This document shows positions 51,988 to 59,258 of a stretch of 64,000 nt of DNA, piece after piece. The position numbers were made by a program, and so were the translations under genes. Source of the stretch: Rhodobacter sp. NTK016B (GTDB lineage: Bacteria; Pseudomonadota; Alphaproteobacteria; Rhodobacterales; Rhodobacteraceae); the NCBI RefSeq assembly GCF_017303295.1, contig NZ_JAFKOK010000018.1, forward strand, positions 1 to 64,000, in the 5' to 3' direction. The notes beneath the pieces are model-generated. The model searched no databases. It was not told the origin of the DNA and was given only the letters and a program-made list of their open reading frames with translations. How positions within the stretch are numbered: the stretch's first letter is position 1; each line of letters begins with the position of its first letter.

Positions 51988-52059
51988 TCCGTTCGTGACG
52001 CGACGATCTGCTGGGCAGCGCCCGCCTTTCCAGCTTTGCTGAGCGCGGGAGGAGCCTGC

Positions 52060-52485
52060 ATGACCGACATCACCCTGGAAACCCGCGTGCGCGACAGCTT
52101 CGCGCGGCAAACGATGATGCAGACCCTGGACGCGCAGCTTGTGTCCATCGCGCCGGGCCGCTGCGTGATCCGAGCGCCGATTGTCGACCACCTCAAGCAA
52201 CAGCACGGCGCCGCCCATGCGGGGCTGGCCTTCACGCTGGGCGATACGGCGGCGGGTTACGCGGCCCTGTCGGTGATGGGGGAAGAGACCGACGTGATGA
52301 CGGTCGAGATGAAGATCAACCTGCTCTCACCCGCTCTGGGCGACGCGCTGGAAGCCGTGGGACAGGTGATGCGCGCGGGCAAGCGGCTGACCGTCGTCAC
52401 CGCCGAGGTCTTTGCGCTGCAGGGCGAGACGCGAAAGTCCGTGGCGCTGCTGCAGGGCACGATGATCCCCGTGGCGCAGCGCTAA
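52060..52485 (+). CDS. Hotdog-fold thioesterase, PaaI-like
   Basis: Start at ATG 52060 (MTDITLETRVRDSF), with GGGAGGAG 5 bases before; 141 residues. The hotdog block HLKQQHGAAHAGLAFTLGD places the catalytic acidic/asparagine position as in PaaI-type enzymes, then VTVEMKINLLSPALGD. It probably hydrolyses aryl- or acyl-CoA esters. No pathway partner lies beside it. Confidence 0.85.
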   Translation: MTDITLETRVRDSFARQTMMQTLDAQLVSIAPGRCVIRAPIVDHLKQQHGAAHAGLAFTLGDTAAGYAALSVMGEETDVMTVEMKINLLSPALGDALEAVGQVMRAGKRLTVVTAEVFALQGETRKSVALLQGTMIPVAQR

Positions 52486-52488
52486 AGG

Positions 52489-52514
52489 AAAGGCGCGACC
52501 GAAGCCGCGCCTTT
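52489..52514. terminator. Bidirectional terminator between thioesterase and folD genes
   Basis: AAAGGCGCG and CGCGCCTTT are perfect 9-base arms with A and T runs on each side, between convergent genes. Confidence 0.85.
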
Positions 52515-52520
52515 CGGAAC

Positions 52521-53423
52521 TCAGGCTGTCAGGCCCTGAGGCTCGGCCAGACCGTTCGCGCGGCAGGCCGCCGTCAGCGTGTTGGCCAAGAGGCAGGCGA
52601 TGGTCATCGGGCCCACGCCGCCCGGCACCGGGGTAATCGCCCCGGCAACTGCGGCCGCGCTTTCGAAATGCACGTCGCCCACCAGCCGGGTCTTGCCCTC
52701 GCCCTTTTCGGGCGCGTCGATGCGGTTGATGCCCACATCGATCACCGTCGCCCCCGGCTTGACCCAGTCGCCCGGGATCATCTCGGGACGGCCCACGGCG
52801 GCGACGAGGATATCGGCCTGCCGGCAGACCGCGCCCAGATCCTTGGTGCGGCTATGCGCGATGGTCACTGTGCAGCTGTCGCCCAGAAGAAGCTGCGCCA
52901 TCGGCTTGCCCACGATGTTCGAACGCCCGACGACGACCGCGTTGAGCCCCGACAGGCTGCCCAGGTGGTCGCGCAGCATCATCAGGCAGCCCAGAGGCGT
53001 GCAGGGAACCATCGACTTCTGCCCGGTGCCCAGCAGGCCCACATTCGAGATATGGAAGCCGTCGACATCCTTGGCCGGGTCGATCGAATTGATCACCAGA
53101 TCGCTGTTCAGATGTCCCGGCAACGGAAGCTGCACGAGGATCCCGTGAACCGTCGCATCCTTGTTCAGATGGTCGATCAGCGCCAGCAGATCGGCCTCGG
53201 GCGTGTCGGCGGGCAGCTTGTGCTCGAACGAGTTCATGCCGACCTCGGTGGTCTGCTTGCCCTTCGATTTCACGTAGACCTGGCTTGCCGGGTCCTCGCC
53301 CACCAGCACCACGGCCAGACCGGGGATCAGGCCGTTTTCATCCTTGAGCCGCTGCACATGGCCCGCGACCTGTTCGCGGACCTTGGCCGCGAAGGCCTTG
53401 CCGTCGATGATGGTTGCGCTCAT
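52521..53423 (-). CDS. folD: Bifunctional methylene-THF dehydrogenase / methenyl-THF cyclohydrolase
   Basis: Start at ATG 53423 ([15 protein letters not shown]), overlapping the chorismate mutase stop by 4 bases; 300 residues. The active-site residues match E. coli numbering: Y50 and K54 in [10 protein letters not shown]98 in VQLPLPG, D121 in KDVDGFH. The NADP site ([17 protein letters not shown]) and C-terminal [10 protein letters not shown] are intact. It interconverts 5,10-methylene-THF and 10-formyl-THF. It is the normal copy of two FolD genes here. Confidence 0.95.
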
Positions 53424-53731
53424 CCGTCTCTCCCTTGCTTGCCGATCACCCGCTCTTCCCGGGCGATCACCGTCTCGATCATTGTCCGCCACATGGCTTC
53501 CACCATGTCGGCGTCGATTCCCCTTGCCTCGGCCTTGGTGCGCACATGCGCCAGAACCTGCGCGACCCGCCCGGGAGCCGCCGCCGAGATGCCCTCGCGC
53601 GCCTTCAGCGCCGGGGCCCGGTCCGTATAGGCCGAGCGCTCGGCCAGAAGCGTCAGCAGCGCATCGTCAATAGCATCGATGCAACCGCGCAGCTCGGCCA
53701 TGCTGTGAACGTCGTCCGGCGCCGGGCGCAT
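53420..53731 (-). CDS. Chorismate mutase, AroQ class
   Basis: A 103-residue all-helical AroQ-type domain: [24 protein letters not shown] has the usual LR..ID.ID..LL..L..R pattern, and the C-terminal helix has [14 protein letters not shown]. It converts chorismate to prephenate. It lies between two folD genes and is coupled to both: three bases after the upstream stop and a 4-base overlap downstream. The reason for linkage is not clear. Confidence 0.9.
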
Positions 53732-53734
53732 GGC

Positions 53735-54616
53735 TCAGGCCTCGGTATTGGCGAAAGCGGCGCGGTAATGCGCCATCTGCAACCGCGTCGCCAGCACCGC
53801 GTTCTTCATCAGCGTGGCCACCGTCACCGGGCCGACGCCGCCGGGCACCGGCGTGATCCAGCCCGCCACTTCGGCGCAGCTGTCGAAATCGGCATCGCCG
53901 ACCGTTTTGCCATCAACCCGGTTGATGCCGATATCGATCAGCGCCGCCCCGGGTTTGAGCATGTCGCCCGTCACCAGCCCGGGCTTGCCGACCGCCACGA
54001 AGACCGCATCCGCGGCGCGGCTATGCATCGCCACCGAGCGGGTCATGTGGTGACACACCGTCACGGTCGCACCCAGCCCCATCAGCAGGAAGGCGATGGG
54101 CTTGCCGACGATCTCGCTATGACCGATCACCGTGACGTCCAGCCCTTCCAGCTTCAGCGGCAGGGTCTTCAGGATCTCGACCGCCGCGACGGCGGTACAG
54201 GGCCCCAGCGCCAGATCGTTATAGACGATGTTGCCGATGGAGGACGGGTGCATGCCCTCGACATCCTTGAGCGGATGCACGGCCTTTTGCAGCGTTTTCA
54301 CAGGGATATGCGCGGGTAGCGGGCGCTGGATGATGATCCCGTTGACGCGCGGATCGGCGTTTAGCCCGTGCAGCACGCCCACCAGCTGCTCCATCGAGAT
54401 CGTTTCGGGATAATTGCGCGCCTCGAATTCGACGCCCGAGGATTCCGCTGTCTTCTGCTGGTTGCGGACGTAAAGCTCGGCAGCGGCGGTATCGCCGACC
54501 GAGATCGACACCAGCCGGGGCTGCCAGCCCTGCTCGGCCAGTTCCCTGGCTTCGGTGACATTATCGGCGCGCATCTGCGCGGCGATGCCTTTTCCATCGA
54601 TGATCGCGGCTCGCAT
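53735..54616 (-). CDS. FolD paralogue lacking the catalytic lysine
   Basis: A 293-residue FolD-fold protein with AGGAG 8 bases before its ATG. NADP site VIGHSEIVGKPIAFLL and [10 protein letters not shown] are intact. Against the neighbouring FolD, Tyr49 is kept (ELYVRNQQK) but the catalytic Lys54 is Gln53, and Asp121 is Glu120 (KDVEGMH); Gln97 is kept. In other FolDs this lysine is essential for the cyclohydrolase step, and a Lys-to-Gln change in the human enzyme is reported to spare dehydrogenase activity. It may therefore be a dedicated methylene-THF dehydrogenase. It lies downstream of fhs, 227 bases away. Confidence 0.85.
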   Translation of the reverse strand: MRAAIIDGKGIAAQMRADNVTEARELAEQGWQPRLVSISVGDTAAAELYVRNQQKTAESSGVEFEARNYPETISMEQLVGVLHGLNADPRVNGIIIQRPLPAHIPVKTLQKAVHPLKDVEGMHPSSIGNIVYNDLALGPCTAVAAVEILKTLPLKLEGLDVTVIGHSEIVGKPIAFLLMGLGATVTVCHHMTRSVAMHSRAADAVFVAVGKPGLVTGDMLKPGAALIDIGINRVDGKTVGDADFDSCAEVAGWITPVPGGVGPVTVATLMKNAVLATRLQMAHYRAAFANTEA

Positions 54617-54806
54617 GGATCTACTCCTGATCGCTGAGGACGTCGTGTTTCGGATCGCGGCGGCACCGGGGCCAGCCGACGGTCAGGGCCGCAGCGGCTT
54701 TGCGATACCCCGACCCTGAATAAGCGCGACGGCCTTACCGCCGTGATAACCGATACCGGTCCGCGGGGACCGGGCGGTGAATAACGGCCCCGCGAAAGCG
54801 GGAAAG

Positions 54807-54838
54807 CGGGCCGGCAAGGGGGATCCCCTGCCGGCCCG
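54807..54838 (-). terminator. Hairpin after fhs
   Basis: CGGGCCGGCA pairs with TGCCGGCCCG around a partly self-paired centre, directly past the fhs stop at 54844. On the minus strand a CTTTCCCGCTTT tail follows, less uniform than a classic T run. Confidence 0.65.
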
Positions 54839-54843
54839 TGCCA

Positions 54844-56520
54844 TCAGAACAGGCCTTCGACGAAGCCCGTGTCGTTGATGCGGATCGTCTCGGCAGCCGG
54901 GGTGCGGGGCAGACCGGGCATGGTCATGATCTCACCGCAGATCACCACGATGAAGCCAGCCCCCGCCGACAGGCGCACTTCCCGAACCGGGACCGAATGG
55001 CCCGTGGGCGCGCCGCGCAGGTTGGGATCGGTCGAGAACGAATACTGCGTCTTCGCCATGCAGACCGGGAAGTGACCGTAGCCGGCGTCTTCCCACGCTT
55101 TGAGCTGCGCGCGGATCGACTTGTCGGCGATCACCTCGTCGGCGTGGTAGATGCGCTTGGCGACGGTTTCGATCTTCTCGAACAGGCTCATCTCGTCGGG
55201 ATAGATCGGCGAGAAGTTCGAGGTGCCCGATTCCGCCATCGACACGACCTTGTGCGCCAGCTCTTCGATCCCGGCCGAGCCATGCGCCCAGTGCTTGCAG
55301 ACGATCGCTTCCGCGCCCTGCTCGGCGACATAGGCCTTCACCGCTTCGATCTCGGCATCGGTATCGCTGTGGAAGTGGTTGATCGCCACGACCACCGGCA
55401 CGCCGAAGCTCTTCACGTTCGAGATGTGGCGACCCAGGTTCGGGCAGCCTTTCTTGACCGCGTCGACATTCTCAGCGCCCAGATCGGCCTTGGCCACGCC
55501 GCCATTCATCTTCATCGCACGCACCGTGGCGACCAGAACCGACGCAGCGGGCGTCAGACCGGCTTTGCGGCACTTGATGTCGAAGAATTTCTCGGCGCCC
55601 AGATCGGCCCCGAAACCGGCTTCTGTGACGACGTAGTCGCCCAGTTTCAGCGCGGTCTTGGTGGCAATGACCGAGTTGCAGCCATGCGCGATGTTGGCGA
55701 ACGGGCCGCCATGCACGAAGGCCGGATTGTTTTCCAGCGTCTGTACGAGGTTGGGCTGCATCGCGTCCTTGAGCAGGACGGTCATCGCGCCATCGGCCTT
55801 GATGTCGCGGCAATAGATCGGCGTGCGCTCGCGGGTATAGGCCACGACGATGTCGCCCAGACGCTTCTGCAGGTCGGCCAGATCCTTGGACAGGCACAGG
55901 ATCGCCATGACTTCCGACGCCACGGTGATGTCGAAGCCGGTCTGACGCGGGAAGCCGTTGGCCACGCCGCCGAGGCTGGTCACGGTGTCACGCAGCGCGC
56001 GGTCGTTCATGTCCATGACGCGGCGCCAGACAACGCGACGCTCGTCGATCTGCAGCGAATTGCCCCAGTAGATGTGGTTGTCGATCATCGCCGACAGCAG
56101 GTTATGCGCCGAGGTGATCGCGTGGAAATCGCCGGTGAAGTGGAGGTTCATTTCCTCCATCGGCACGACCTGAGCATAGCCACCGCCCGCAGCGCCGCCC
56201 TTCATGCCGAAGTTCGGGCCGAGCGAGGCTTCGCGGATACAAATCACGGCTTTCTTGCCGATGCGGTTCAGACCGTCGCCCAGACCGACCGTGGTCGTGG
56301 TCTTGCCTTCGCCCGCCGGGGTCGGGTTGATCGCGGTCACGAGGATCAGCTTGCCGTCGGGACGATCCGCCAGCGAGGTGATGAAATCCTGGCTGACCTT
56401 GGCCTTGTCGTGGCCATAGGGCAGCAGATCCGTCGCCGGAATGCCCAGTTTCTCGCCGATCTCCATGATCGGCTTTTTCTGCGCCTCGCGCGCGATCTCG
56501 ATATCAGTCTTGAATGACAT
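54844..56520 (-). CDS. fhs: Formate--tetrahydrofolate ligase
   Basis: A 558-residue enzyme, the usual length. The ATP site is [21 protein letters not shown], truncated here to its core TPAGEGKTT; other family blocks are [29 protein letters not shown] and LTRE-like [11 protein letters not shown] at the end. GGGAGGG precedes the ATG. It joins formate to THF with ATP, or runs in reverse to gain ATP. With the two FolD proteins it forms a C1 module that can oxidise methyl-derived C1 units to formate. Confidence 0.96.
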
Positions 56521-56647
56521 GGAAGCCCTCCCTGCACTTGCATGGCCTGCGCCAGACTTAGCGGCAGGGCGAGAATGTATACATGCCTATTACGACCTGT
56601 CGGTGCCGTTTTCCGTCTCGTGGCGTTTCCGATCGGAAAGTCGCGTA

Positions 56648-57247
56648 TCACTCGGTGGTCGTCGTTTCCCGTTCCGCCCAGACCGGCTGATCGGGCACGA
56701 AAAGCCGCAGCCGGTCGCCCAGAGCGACCGCGCCCTCGGCCTCGACCCAGGCGGTCACGCCGCGCCGGTCCTTGGCTGCGGCCTTGAACGCCTTGCCGAA
56801 ACCGGGATGCGCGGTCTCTATCGGGCGCGCGGGCAAGGTACAGGGGCGGTTTTCCATATCCACCGTGACCGAGGCGCCCGATTCCGCCAGCAGCCGCGAC
56901 GATGGCGGGACATGGGTGAAATCGGGAATGCCGCGAATCACCATCGTCGCGCCGACCAGAGCCGGGTCCAGCGATTCCAGCCCCATTTCGGCGGCGATCC
57001 GGTCAAGCTCTTCGACCGACAGGATCGACAATTGCCGCGCGTTGCGAATGGGCGTGTTGCGCGGATAAAGCCCCAGCACGCGCGAGCAGGACGGGCGCGT
57101 CATCCCGCCATGGGTTTCGCCCGCCGGGCCGTCAAAGGTCAGCTCCATCCGCTCGAGCGGCTGCGATTCCAGCGCGGCATCGCGGTCGGGCACGATGCCC
57201 AGCCAGACGATTTCGGCCTCGTAACGGGTCTTGGCGAGCGCGGGCAT
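56648..57247 (-). CDS. MOSC domain protein
   Basis: A 199-residue protein covering a MOSC domain: MTRPSCSRVLGLYPRNTPIRN, ARQLSILSVEELDRIA, and TVDMENRPCTLPARPIE with the conserved cysteine (about residue 136), followed by the GVTAWVEAEGAVALGD strand. MOSC proteins carry sulfur or bind molybdenum cofactor. No partner gene is near. Start ATG 57247 has GGAAAG upstream. Confidence 0.85.
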   Translation of the reverse strand: MPALAKTRYEAEIVWLGIVPDRDAALESQPLERMELTFDGPAGETHGGMTRPSCSRVLGLYPRNTPIRNARQLSILSVEELDRIAAEMGLESLDPALVGATMVIRGIPDFTHVPPSSRLLAESGASVTVDMENRPCTLPARPIETAHPGFGKAFKAAAKDRRGVTAWVEAEGAVALGDRLRLFVPDQPVWAERETTTTE

Positions 57248-57278
57248 GGCGACTTTCCTTTTCCTTCACACATGAAAA

Positions 57279-57307
57279 AGCCCGGCACCGTCGCGCGGTG
57301 CCGGGCT
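57279..57307 (-). terminator. Terminator of ftsH
   Basis: AGCCCGGCACCG and CGGTGCCGGGCT are perfect 12-base arms with loop TCGCG; on the minus strand TTTTTC follows. It lies 35 bases past the ftsH stop. Confidence 0.9.
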
Positions 57308-57341
57308 GAATGCAAGGGCGGATCAGCGATCCGTCATGGCG

Positions 57342-59258
57342 TCAGGCGCTCGGATTGGGCTCCATCCCGCCATCATCGCCGCGCGGACGCGGACGCGTTT
57401 TCGGGATCGACGCGACCGACGGCAAACCACCGCCTGAATTCGCCGAATCGTCCTCGTCGCGGCCCGGACCCTCGCCGCGCATCACGCGGGTGATTTCCGA
57501 ACCGGTCAGCGTCTCGTATTCCAGCAGACCCTGCGCGAGGTTTTCCAGCTCGTCGGCATTCTCGGTCAGAATGCGCTTGGCGGTCTGGTAGCCCTCGTCG
57601 ACGATCTTGCGGACTTCCTGGTCGATCTTCTTCTGGGTTTCCTGGCTGGCATTCGACCCGCCCGAGTAGTTCCCCAGATAGGATTGCTGCTCATTGGCAT
57701 AGTCGATATGGCCCAGCTCTTCCGAGAAGCCGAACTGCGTCACCATCGCGCGGGCGATCTTGGTCACCTGCTGGATGTCCGACGACGCGCCCGAGGTCAC
57801 GTTTTCCTTGCCGAAGATCAGCTCCTCAGCCACCTTGCCGCCCATCGCCATGGCGATCTTCGACTTGTACTTGGTGTAGGTCACGCTCAGCTGATCGCGC
57901 TCGGGCAGCGACAGCACCAGACCCAGTGCGCGACCGCGCGGGATGATCGTCGCCTTGTGGATCGGATCGTGCTGCGGGACGTGCAGGCCGACGACCGCGT
58001 GGCCGGCTTCGTGATACGCGGTGAGCTTCTTTTCGTCCTCGGTCATGACCATGGACCGTCGCTCGGCCCCCATCATCACCTTGTCTTTGGCATCCTCGAA
58101 GTCCTGCATCGTGACAAAGCGGCGGTTCTTGCGCGCGGCCATCAGCGCCGCCTCGTTCACGAGGTTGGCCAGATCCGCACCCGAGAAGCCCGGCGTGCCC
58201 CGCGCGATGATGCGCAGATCCACGTTCGGCCCCAGAGGCACCTTGCGGGCATGGACGCCCAGAATCCGCTCGCGGCCCTTGATGTCGGGATTGGGCACCT
58301 GCACCTGACGGTCGAAACGACCGGGACGCAGCAGCGCGGGGTCAAGAACGTCGGGGCGGTTGGTCGCGGCGACGATGATGATGCCTTCATTGGCCTCGAA
58401 ACCGTCCATCTCGACCAGAAGCTGGTTCAGCGTCTGCTCGCGCTCGTCATTGCCGCCGCCATAGCCCACGCCGCGCGACCGGCCCACGGCGTCGATCTCG
58501 TCGATGAACACGATGCAGGGCGCGTTTTTCTTGGCCTGCTCGAACATGTCGCGCACACGGCTGGCGCCGACACCCACGAACATCTCGACGAAGTCCGAGC
58601 CCGAGATGGTGAAGAACGGCACGCCCGCCTCGCCCGCAATCGCGCGCGCCAGCAGCGTCTTACCGGTCCCCGGAGGGCCCACCAGCAGCGCGCCTTTCGG
58701 GATCTTGCCGCCGAGACGGCTGAATTTCTGCGGGTTGCGCAGGAATTCGACGATCTCTTCAAGCTCTTCCTTGGCTTCATCAATGCCCGCGACATCGTCG
58801 AAGGTCACGCGGCCATGCTTTTCGGTCAGCAGCTTGGCCTTGGACTTGCCAAAGCCCATCGCGCCACCGCGGCCACCGCCCTGCATGCGGTTCATGAAGA
58901 ATATCCACACGCCGATCAGCAGCAGGAAGGGCAGCCAGACCGACAGCGCCGACATCAGGCCCGACCGCTCTTGCGGGCGCGCCTCGACGGCGACGTCGGA
59001 TTCCAGAAGCCGTTCGGTCGGGTTCTCGCCCGAGGGGCGAATGGTCGTATAGGCGGTGCCCGAACGGTCGGTCACGCGCAGCGTCTCGCCGTCGATCACG
59101 ACCCGGCTCACGTCACCGGCCTCGACCCTTTGCAGGAAATCCGAATAGCCGATGCTCCGCCCGCTGCTCGTCGTGGACCCGTTGTTGAACAACGTGAACA
59201 GAACGATCATCAGGAAGAACAGCACGATCCAGAAGGCGAAATTGCGCGCGTTGCCCAC
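57342..59258 (-). CDS. ftsH: ATP-dependent zinc metalloprotease FtsH
   Basis: A 638-residue membrane protease starting at GTG 59258 (GGGAG before it). Two N-terminal helices (about 8-25 and 105-122) flank a periplasmic domain. The AAA domain has Walker A GPPGTGKT (194-201), Walker [13 protein letters not shown], pore motif and SRH. The M41 protease has HEAGH in [12 protein letters not shown], then the third zinc ligand in the [11 protein letters not shown] region. The glycine/serine-rich C-terminal tail is typical. It degrades membrane and short-lived proteins. Follows tilS in the usual order. Confidence 0.97.

Follow-up and report, generated by a model that had tools for sequence, protein, structure and literature searches.

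We identified, in a 64,000-nucleotide stretch of the Rhodobacter sp. NTK016B genome (positions 1 to 64,000 of contig NZ_JAFKOK010000018.1, hereafter the window), a FolD paralogue that on balance probably acts as a 5,10-methylene-tetrahydrofolate (THF) dehydrogenase without cyclohydrolase activity, serving methyl-group oxidation while a canonical bifunctional FolD encoded in the same operon supplies the cyclohydrolase step. The paralogue belongs to a subfamily that spans several alphaproteobacterial families and has fixed, rebuilt folate and cofactor pockets. The gene and the codons that set it apart from canonical FolD are as follows:

53735..54616, minus strand: FolD paralogue, 293 amino acids, proposed dehydrogenase-only methylene-THF dehydrogenase (open reading frame, Pfam, alignment, tree and structure model)
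54458..54460, minus strand: Gln53 codon, equivalent to E. coli Lys54 (alignment; Gln in 130 of 130 rows)
54323..54325, minus strand: Arg98 codon, canonical Leu99, human Leu101 by motif (alignment rows)
54257..54259, minus strand: Glu120 codon, equivalent to E. coli Asp121 (alignment; Glu in 130 of 130 rows)
54119..54121, minus strand: His166 codon, canonical Arg167, human Arg173 by motif, which contacts the NADP 2′-phosphate (alignment rows)
54047..54049, minus strand: His190 codon, canonical Ser191, human Ser197 by motif, which contacts the NADP 2′-phosphate (alignment rows)

Alignment of the paralogue with E. coli FolD (1b0a) pairs Y49 with Y50, Q53 with K54, Q97 with Q98 and E120 with D121, bearing out a first-pass annotation of this DNA that had read the lysine as changed to Gln and the aspartate to Glu with Y49 and Q97 kept. 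The YxxxK motif of bifunctional FolD accordingly reads YVRNQ in the paralogue, and the pterin-binding Asp is replaced by E120 with its carboxylate retained; the canonical FolD of the window carries YVKSK and KDVDGF motifs. Every one of the 130 paralogue rows has Y-Q-Q-E at these four positions and every one of the 109 canonical rows has Y-K-Q-D, counts that include the window's two rows and some genes fetched twice, omit L001, L003, L035 and L036 as repeats, and assign each row to the class of the closer of the two window proteins. A hand-chosen set of 79 rows, from which spans under 200 residues were dropped, gave Gln and Glu in 44 of 44 paralogues and Lys and Asp in 35 of 35 FolDs. Orthologues, where random residues would have spoken against a functional change, thus hold both exchanges fixed. 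Eighteen positions are near-invariant within each class (95% and 90%) yet differ between the paralogues and canonical FolD, a count that omits the divergent L176 row and includes, in canonical numbering, K54Q, L99R, D121E, R167H and S191H. The observation therefore reaches beyond the first-pass annotation, in which neither the change of Leu99 to Arg98 in the folate pocket, also fixed in the paralogues, nor the changes of NADP ligands were noted.

In domains and fold the protein is a full member of the FolD family. Both FolD Pfam domains score above their gathering thresholds (PF02882, 186.6 bits against 27; PF00763, 107.7 bits against 32.8), and the best score to the NCBIfam models of bifunctional FolD is 290.7 bits against a cut-off of 421, with no such cut-off reached among the best 25 of 30 matches. 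An AlphaFold2 model shows the usual FolD fold (pLDDT 89.7, pTM 0.88), although such a model is unable to decide activity, and the 50 Protein Data Bank chains listed by Foldseek were all FolD or MTHFD enzymes, the best being 5o22 (TM score 0.87, 42% identity). The paralogue does not side with the yeast Mtd1 clade, with a phmmer E value of 2.3e-13 to 1edz against 1.2e-68 to P. aeruginosa FolD 4a5o. Thirty-nine positions are invariant in both classes, including Y49, Q97, T141, S167 and the loop glycines, which argues for a working dehydrogenase, and from these residues we consider it quite likely that the paralogue is active in this reaction. An earlier statement that the NADP site remains holds for the dinucleotide fold and many cofactor contacts, which are retained, and fails for the phosphate end of the site: the NADP 2′-phosphate of the human and Leishmania enzymes is held by an Arg-Ser-His trio (PMC3368264, section 3.2), and the paralogue has exchanged two of these three ligands, with His166 in place of Arg and His190 in place of Ser in each of its 44 rows. 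Three of the seven substrate residues of the human enzyme given in the same paper are likewise exchanged, with Lys, Leu and Asp becoming Gln, Arg and Glu in 44 of 44 rows, the human equivalents being assigned by motif and not by alignment to the human enzyme. Because His166 and His190 are fixed, a shift from NADP to NAD is suggested, and we propose tentatively that the paralogue may prefer NAD.

Published mutants of other enzymes, which disagree among themselves, make it quite probable that the cyclohydrolase activity has been lost. E. coli FolD K54N had no detectable cyclohydrolase and about 19% dehydrogenase, and a two-residue deletion at the lysine site likewise left cyclohydrolase undetectable (PMC5688156). 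Cyclohydrolase-less E. coli folD mutants grew slowly yet were viable, which the authors attributed to spontaneous hydrolysis of methenyl-THF (PMC5688156), and for human MTHFD2 a modelling paper presents a role of Lys88 in cyclohydrolase catalysis as possible and not proven (PMC9173628). A literature search covering titles and abstract openings, with few subscription journals, listed no paper on a lysine-less bacterial FolD, and none of the papers listed contained the human Lys-to-Gln variant (K56Q) that the first-pass annotation had invoked as keeping its dehydrogenase. In the proposed scheme, 5,10-methylene-THF derived from the methyl groups of methylated amines, trimethylamine N-oxide (TMAO), choline or betaine, and sarcosine (and from glycine) would be oxidized by the paralogue to 5,10-methenyl-THF, the co-encoded canonical FolD would hydrolyze this to 10-formyl-THF, and Fhs (or PurU) would free formate. 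An NAD-linked paralogue would yield NADH for energy, and canonical FolD would keep the NADP-linked biosynthetic step.

Paralogue-type proteins of at least 56% identity occur in 37 of 295 genomes of the window's family, where the other listed matches reach at most 48%, and form group I (24 of the 37 genomes, 70–100% identical, including the window's copy) and group II (13 of 37, 56–65% identical). When the window protein was aligned with 25 paralogues from other genomes and this alignment served as the query (E up to 1e-90; the 25 loci were taken from the family search, a few of its fetched loci being omitted), the paralogue was found in 21 of 385 genomes at class level and in 15 of 398 at phylum level, each of the latter in the window's class, with the share of the 398 that lies outside this class not shown. 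The named genomes, comprising the best 80 of 436 relatives, are mostly titled as Rhodobacteraceae genera, the closest among the named matches listed being Pararhodobacter marinus at 99% identity, and 3 of 315 matches in plasmid records were at least 57% identical, all from Rhodobacterales. These loci rule out an oddity of a single strain. Masking six diagnostic columns left all 44 rows of the paralogue together on one side of a branch (length 1.45, support 97/99), in an unrooted tree in which long canonical rows were flagged, one of them as joining the paralogue branch. The paralogue is under purifying selection, with a ratio of nonsynonymous to synonymous substitution rates (dN/dS) of 0.054 to a same-genus copy and 0.087 to another genus; that of canonical folD is 0.16 to the same-genus copy. 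A pseudogene or drifting gene is ruled out by these paralogue values together with many invariant columns (26 rows) and the lack of internal stops, a check that covers the listed places of the family, class and phylum searches.

In the window, the paralogue lies within one operon, read on the minus strand in the order fhs, FolD paralogue, chorismate-mutase-like gene (cm), canonical folD:

54844..56520, minus strand: Fhs, formate-THF ligase (NF010030, 940.8 bits, cut-off 652)
54807..54838, minus strand: strong GC hairpin of 14 pairs directly after fhs, without a T run (folding energy)
53420..53731, minus strand: chorismate-mutase-like gene (PF01817, 68.6 bits, cut-off 27; TIGR01803, 68.8 bits, under the 73.35 cut-off)
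52521..53423, minus strand: canonical bifunctional FolD, ATG at 53423 (NF010785, 520.4 bits, cut-off 396)

The first-pass annotation had placed the paralogue beside a normal FolD and Fhs within 53420–56520; both neighbors are present, but the FolD gene (52521–53423) falls outside that interval, and the lowest 312 bases of the interval belong to the chorismate-mutase-like gene. Each of the 62 paralogue-bearing genomes checked also has a second FolD or at least the 3′ end of its gene. In 58 of these the evidence is a further C-terminal-domain match above 200 bits, with Lys54 read only in those that were fetched, and genome G309 has a divergent second FolD with Lys and Asp kept. The paralogue seemed to stand alone in G153 and G190, a possibility ruled out by contigs that open with a folD 3′ end immediately ahead of the paralogue (82.6% identity over 23 residues in G153 and 85.7% over 28 in G190), and the G002 contig ends in a folD piece that is 92.7% identical over 41 residues; the apparent gaps in these three genomes are assembly breaks, and whole folD genes were not seen there. 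Draft contigs at three loci (L174, L175 and L177) break inside the folD adjoining the paralogue, perhaps through collapse of near-identical fhs-folD copies; apparent absence of folD or fhs from drafts of this kind should not be trusted. On contig 22, the 4.84-Mb genome that contains the window encodes both a third FolD with canonical residues and a second Fhs.

Gene order around the paralogue follows two patterns. Group I has fhs-(cm)-paralogue-folD, and the 80 named loci divide into 46 with fhs-cm-paralogue-folD, 25 with fhs-paralogue-folD, 4 with fhs-paralogue-cm-folD and 5 with fewer genes in reach; group II, where folD is near, has fhs-folD-paralogue, as in Ponticoccus. Because the two orders occur in separate subclades, the association of the paralogue with folD appears to have arisen or been rebuilt more than once, with gain and loss indistinguishable; the state of lying beside folD, assigned manually from 1.5 to about 8 kb of flanking sequence per side, needs five changes on the tree. 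The gap between paralogue and folD is about 60 nucleotides or less in 68 of the 75 named loci without an intervening chorismate-mutase-like gene, with starts estimated by alignment. Neighboring genes were called with a gene caller based on codon-position GC, which left the paralogue in L139 unlabeled, and the AT-rich L152 was read from its open reading frame list instead. This close coupling in both gene orders, the dimeric state of FolD (PMC5688156) and the second FolD in all 62 genomes would also fit a partner subunit that forms a heterodimer with canonical FolD and either modulates it or gives an asymmetric enzyme. We regard such a role as improbable, since 28 of the 44 tree rows have no folD adjoining the paralogue over the same 1.5 to about 8 kb a side, and the paralogue has kept its catalytic and dinucleotide residues and a low dN/dS.

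The dehydrogenase-only reading draws further support from genes of methyl-group metabolism. Part of the paralogue copies neighbor pathways that give 5,10-methylene-THF (PMC13390433, PMC3160333). A Ponticoccus alexandrii plasmid has the order fdh-fdhF-fhs-folD-paralogue-tdm, where tdm encodes TMAO demethylase (Tdm); on a Paracoccus aminovorans plasmid the paralogue is followed by genes for a BCCT transporter and a GlxA-type regulator. Elsewhere it is followed by three N-methylglutamate synthase-like (mgs) genes, judged by eye, and then by a type III glutamine synthetase gene (gmaS, 648.6 bits). At L152:7343-8236, in the 1.2-Mb, AT-rich genome G355 of the same class, the paralogue adjoins genes that by eye resemble those for heterotetrameric sarcosine oxidase (sox). 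A tdm gene lies within about 3 kb of the paralogue in 7 of 56 genomes (G002, G056, G123, G153, G190, G240 and G831). Among family genomes, Tdm was found in 22 of 34 that carry the paralogue (three of the 37, each less than 90% complete, were set aside) and in 3 of 24 that lack it (p 1.1e-4), or 20 of 34 and 2 of 24 when only matches over the curated cut-off are counted, the larger figures including sub-cut-off matches in G257, G210 and G625 and, without the paralogue, G063. The enrichment holds for group I alone (12 of 22, p 0.004), Tdm also occurs in 13 of 22 additional genomes with the paralogue (the 22 being G831 from the window's family and 21 from other families), and gmaS is enriched with group II (11 of 12 against 8 of 24, p 0.0013) and not with group I (9 of 22, p 0.76). 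In Ruegeria pomeroyi, an fhs null mutation abolished growth with betaine as the only source of carbon, and the legend to a figure lists folD, ftsH, tdm and fdh in the surroundings of both fhs copies (PMC4744692); these settings resemble that of the window's operon and that of the second fhs in the genome that contains the window. Together, this context makes a role in methyl oxidation fairly probable, the case being stronger for group II than for group I, which includes the window's copy. Independent setting of dehydrogenase and cyclohydrolase fluxes, which the first-pass annotation had proposed, is something one might infer from the pair of enzymes; the context points rather to methyl-group oxidation.

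Several observations weigh against the dehydrogenase-only reading. A silkworm enzyme with K53A retained both dehydrogenase and cyclohydrolase (kcat/Km 0.097 against 0.13), and its D120A variant gave no measurable methylene-THF kinetics, with NADP and NAD values tabulated (PMC6443876). The earlier expectation that cyclohydrolase is lost and dehydrogenase kept is upheld by E. coli K54N and contradicted in part by silkworm K53A. The silkworm enzyme is slow by its own table, its Asp120 was changed to Ala and not to Glu, and its Q97A variant retained both activities; an E. coli Asp121 mutant cited in the same paper had 0.17% efficiency for methylene-THF (PMC6443876). The literature search described above found no published assay of the paralogue. 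Arg98 could replace the lysine in its role. As to the cofactor, His can still bind phosphate, and by alignment E. coli FolD is without this Arg-Ser pair although NADP-linked (PMC6443876). The window's own copy adjoins genes that by eye resemble ftsH, tilS, pal and tolB, not amine genes. The p values given here ignore kinship, and the 24 controls were picked in handle order among genomes at least 99% complete. Fhs is about as frequent with the paralogue (32 of 34 genomes) as without it (21 of 24, p 0.64), which leaves an obligatory link between paralogue and Fhs unsupported, and gmaS tracks the paralogue weakly across both groups (20 of 34 against 8 of 24, p 0.067). Many copies in family f174 and several other families had no one-carbon neighbors in view, and in f174 (L166, L167 and L168, from one genus with 6–7 Mb genomes) the paralogue adjoins genes that by eye resemble those for glycolate oxidase, which suggests a photorespiration-like or glycine-linked use. 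PurU, found in 10 of 80 genomes, is uninformative.

One alternative is that the paralogue is still a bifunctional FolD, in which Arg98 or the rebuilt pocket of Q53, R98 and E120 replaces the lysine and the protein is a cofactor or expression variant. The silkworm K53A result (PMC6443876) favors this, as does the fixation of Arg98 and Glu120 together with Gln53, as expected of a compensated site; against it, E. coli K54N and the two-residue deletion lacked detectable cyclohydrolase (PMC5688156), and with a second FolD in 62 of 62 genomes replacement of FolD by the paralogue was not seen. We consider this alternative unlikely, although it merits more weight than the other rivals discussed here. 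The change of three folate-contact positions in 44 of 44 rows could instead reflect a different substrate, for example another folate form arising from demethylation; Tyr49, Gln97 and the glycines are kept, however, and part of the copies neighbor pathways that deliver 5,10-methylene-THF itself (PMC13390433, PMC3160333), so that we find a new substrate quite improbable. Least probable to us is a spare dehydrogenase that is refractory to natural inhibitors of FolD: Lys54 anchors carolacton, which should therefore fail to act on an enzyme with Gln at this site, and the residual dehydrogenase of E. coli K54N is fully carolacton-insensitive (PMC5688156). Against such a role, the known gene contexts are metabolic, and the L99R and cofactor changes would be left unexplained. 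Carolacton comes from a myxobacterium, and we know of no link between that organism and the habitats concerned, which also counts against this explanation. A fuller version of the dehydrogenase-only proposal would describe the paralogue as an NAD-linked, carolacton-insensitive enzyme at the oxidative entry of THF-linked methyl oxidation and a stoichiometric partner, possibly in a heterodimer, of NADP-linked FolD, placed next to folD in two arrangements that belong to separate subclades; all of these features holding together is rather unlikely.

Comparison with known systems helps to place the paralogue as a proposed monofunctional dehydrogenase. It shares fold, length, Y50, Q98 and the dinucleotide domain with canonical bifunctional FolD (E. 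coli 1b0a and 5o22, P. aeruginosa 4a5o) and differs in K54 to Q, L99 to R, D121 to E and the replacement of the NADP-phosphate Arg and Ser by His. Like the E. coli K54N mutant (PMC5688156), it has an amide side chain in place of the YxxxK lysine, but K54N is a single artificial change to Asn whereas the paralogue has Gln among several changes that are fixed together. The THF-linked oxidation of methyl groups through FolD and Fhs, as in marine roseobacters and SAR11 (PMC4744692, PMC3160333), is the same pathway, and roseobacters share gene neighborhoods with fhs, folD, ftsH, tdm and fdh (PMC4744692); the available text of both papers treats FolD as one bifunctional enzyme and does not mention a lysine-less second FolD, and SAR11 strain HTCC1062 is assigned a single folD (PMC3160333). 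Yeast Mtd1 (1edz), a monofunctional NAD-dependent relative of FolD, performs the chemistry proposed for the paralogue and is distant from it in sequence, a relation judged by phmmer score alone. The dehydrogenase MtdA of Methylobacterium is not known to be a FolD. Together with Fch it likewise divides dehydrogenase and cyclohydrolase between separate proteins of one-carbon metabolism (PMC4543880); unlike that pair, the paralogue is FolD-derived and a full FolD stays in its operon.

Such proteins carry a 'bifunctional' annotation on the Paracoccus aminovorans and Ponticoccus plasmids. Flux models built on it, for the oxidation of methylated amines and betaine by Alphaproteobacteria of sea and soil, would therefore include a cyclohydrolase activity that these proteins probably lack and possibly the wrong cofactor. 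The paralogue family is also a natural experiment on how one FolD activity can be parted from the other, a point on which the lysine mutants in the literature conflict. If the fuller version of the proposal were true, cells could oxidize methyl groups to gain NADH and leave the NADP-linked dehydrogenase to biosynthesis, and a class-wide alphaproteobacterial enzyme would so far have gone unrecognized.

Further features of the operon and its relatives were recorded. The second fhs-folD pair of the same genome (L004:6755-13440) is flanked by genes for TMAO demethylase (1228 bits) and trimethylamine monooxygenase (836 bits), with a type III glutamine synthetase gene on the same contig, which likely encodes a trimethylamine pathway. 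In G355, the neighbors of the paralogue also resemble by eye thymidylate synthase and dihydrofolate reductase and the second FolD lies elsewhere; retention of two FolDs in a 1.2-Mb genome is notable. A promoter scan of 53300–56900 found no promoter and two terminator-like matches at chance level, and a search of 52000–57400 for riboswitches and known RNAs gave no match with an E value of 1 or lower. Between the end of fhs and the start of the paralogue are 227 bases, which include the GC hairpin (−33.2 kcal/mol, z −3.85 for a 49-nucleotide stretch); the hairpin had no entry in the terminator scan and is a possible terminator, processing or attenuation point. The stop of the chorismate-mutase-like gene overlaps the folD start. 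This gene stands between paralogue and folD in the window and at four named loci (L063, L072, L106 and L110), between fhs and paralogue in 46 of the 80 named loci, and is missing from the operon position in the near relative Pararhodobacter marinus (L057). The genome that contains the window has a second chorismate-mutase-like gene, on contig 85.

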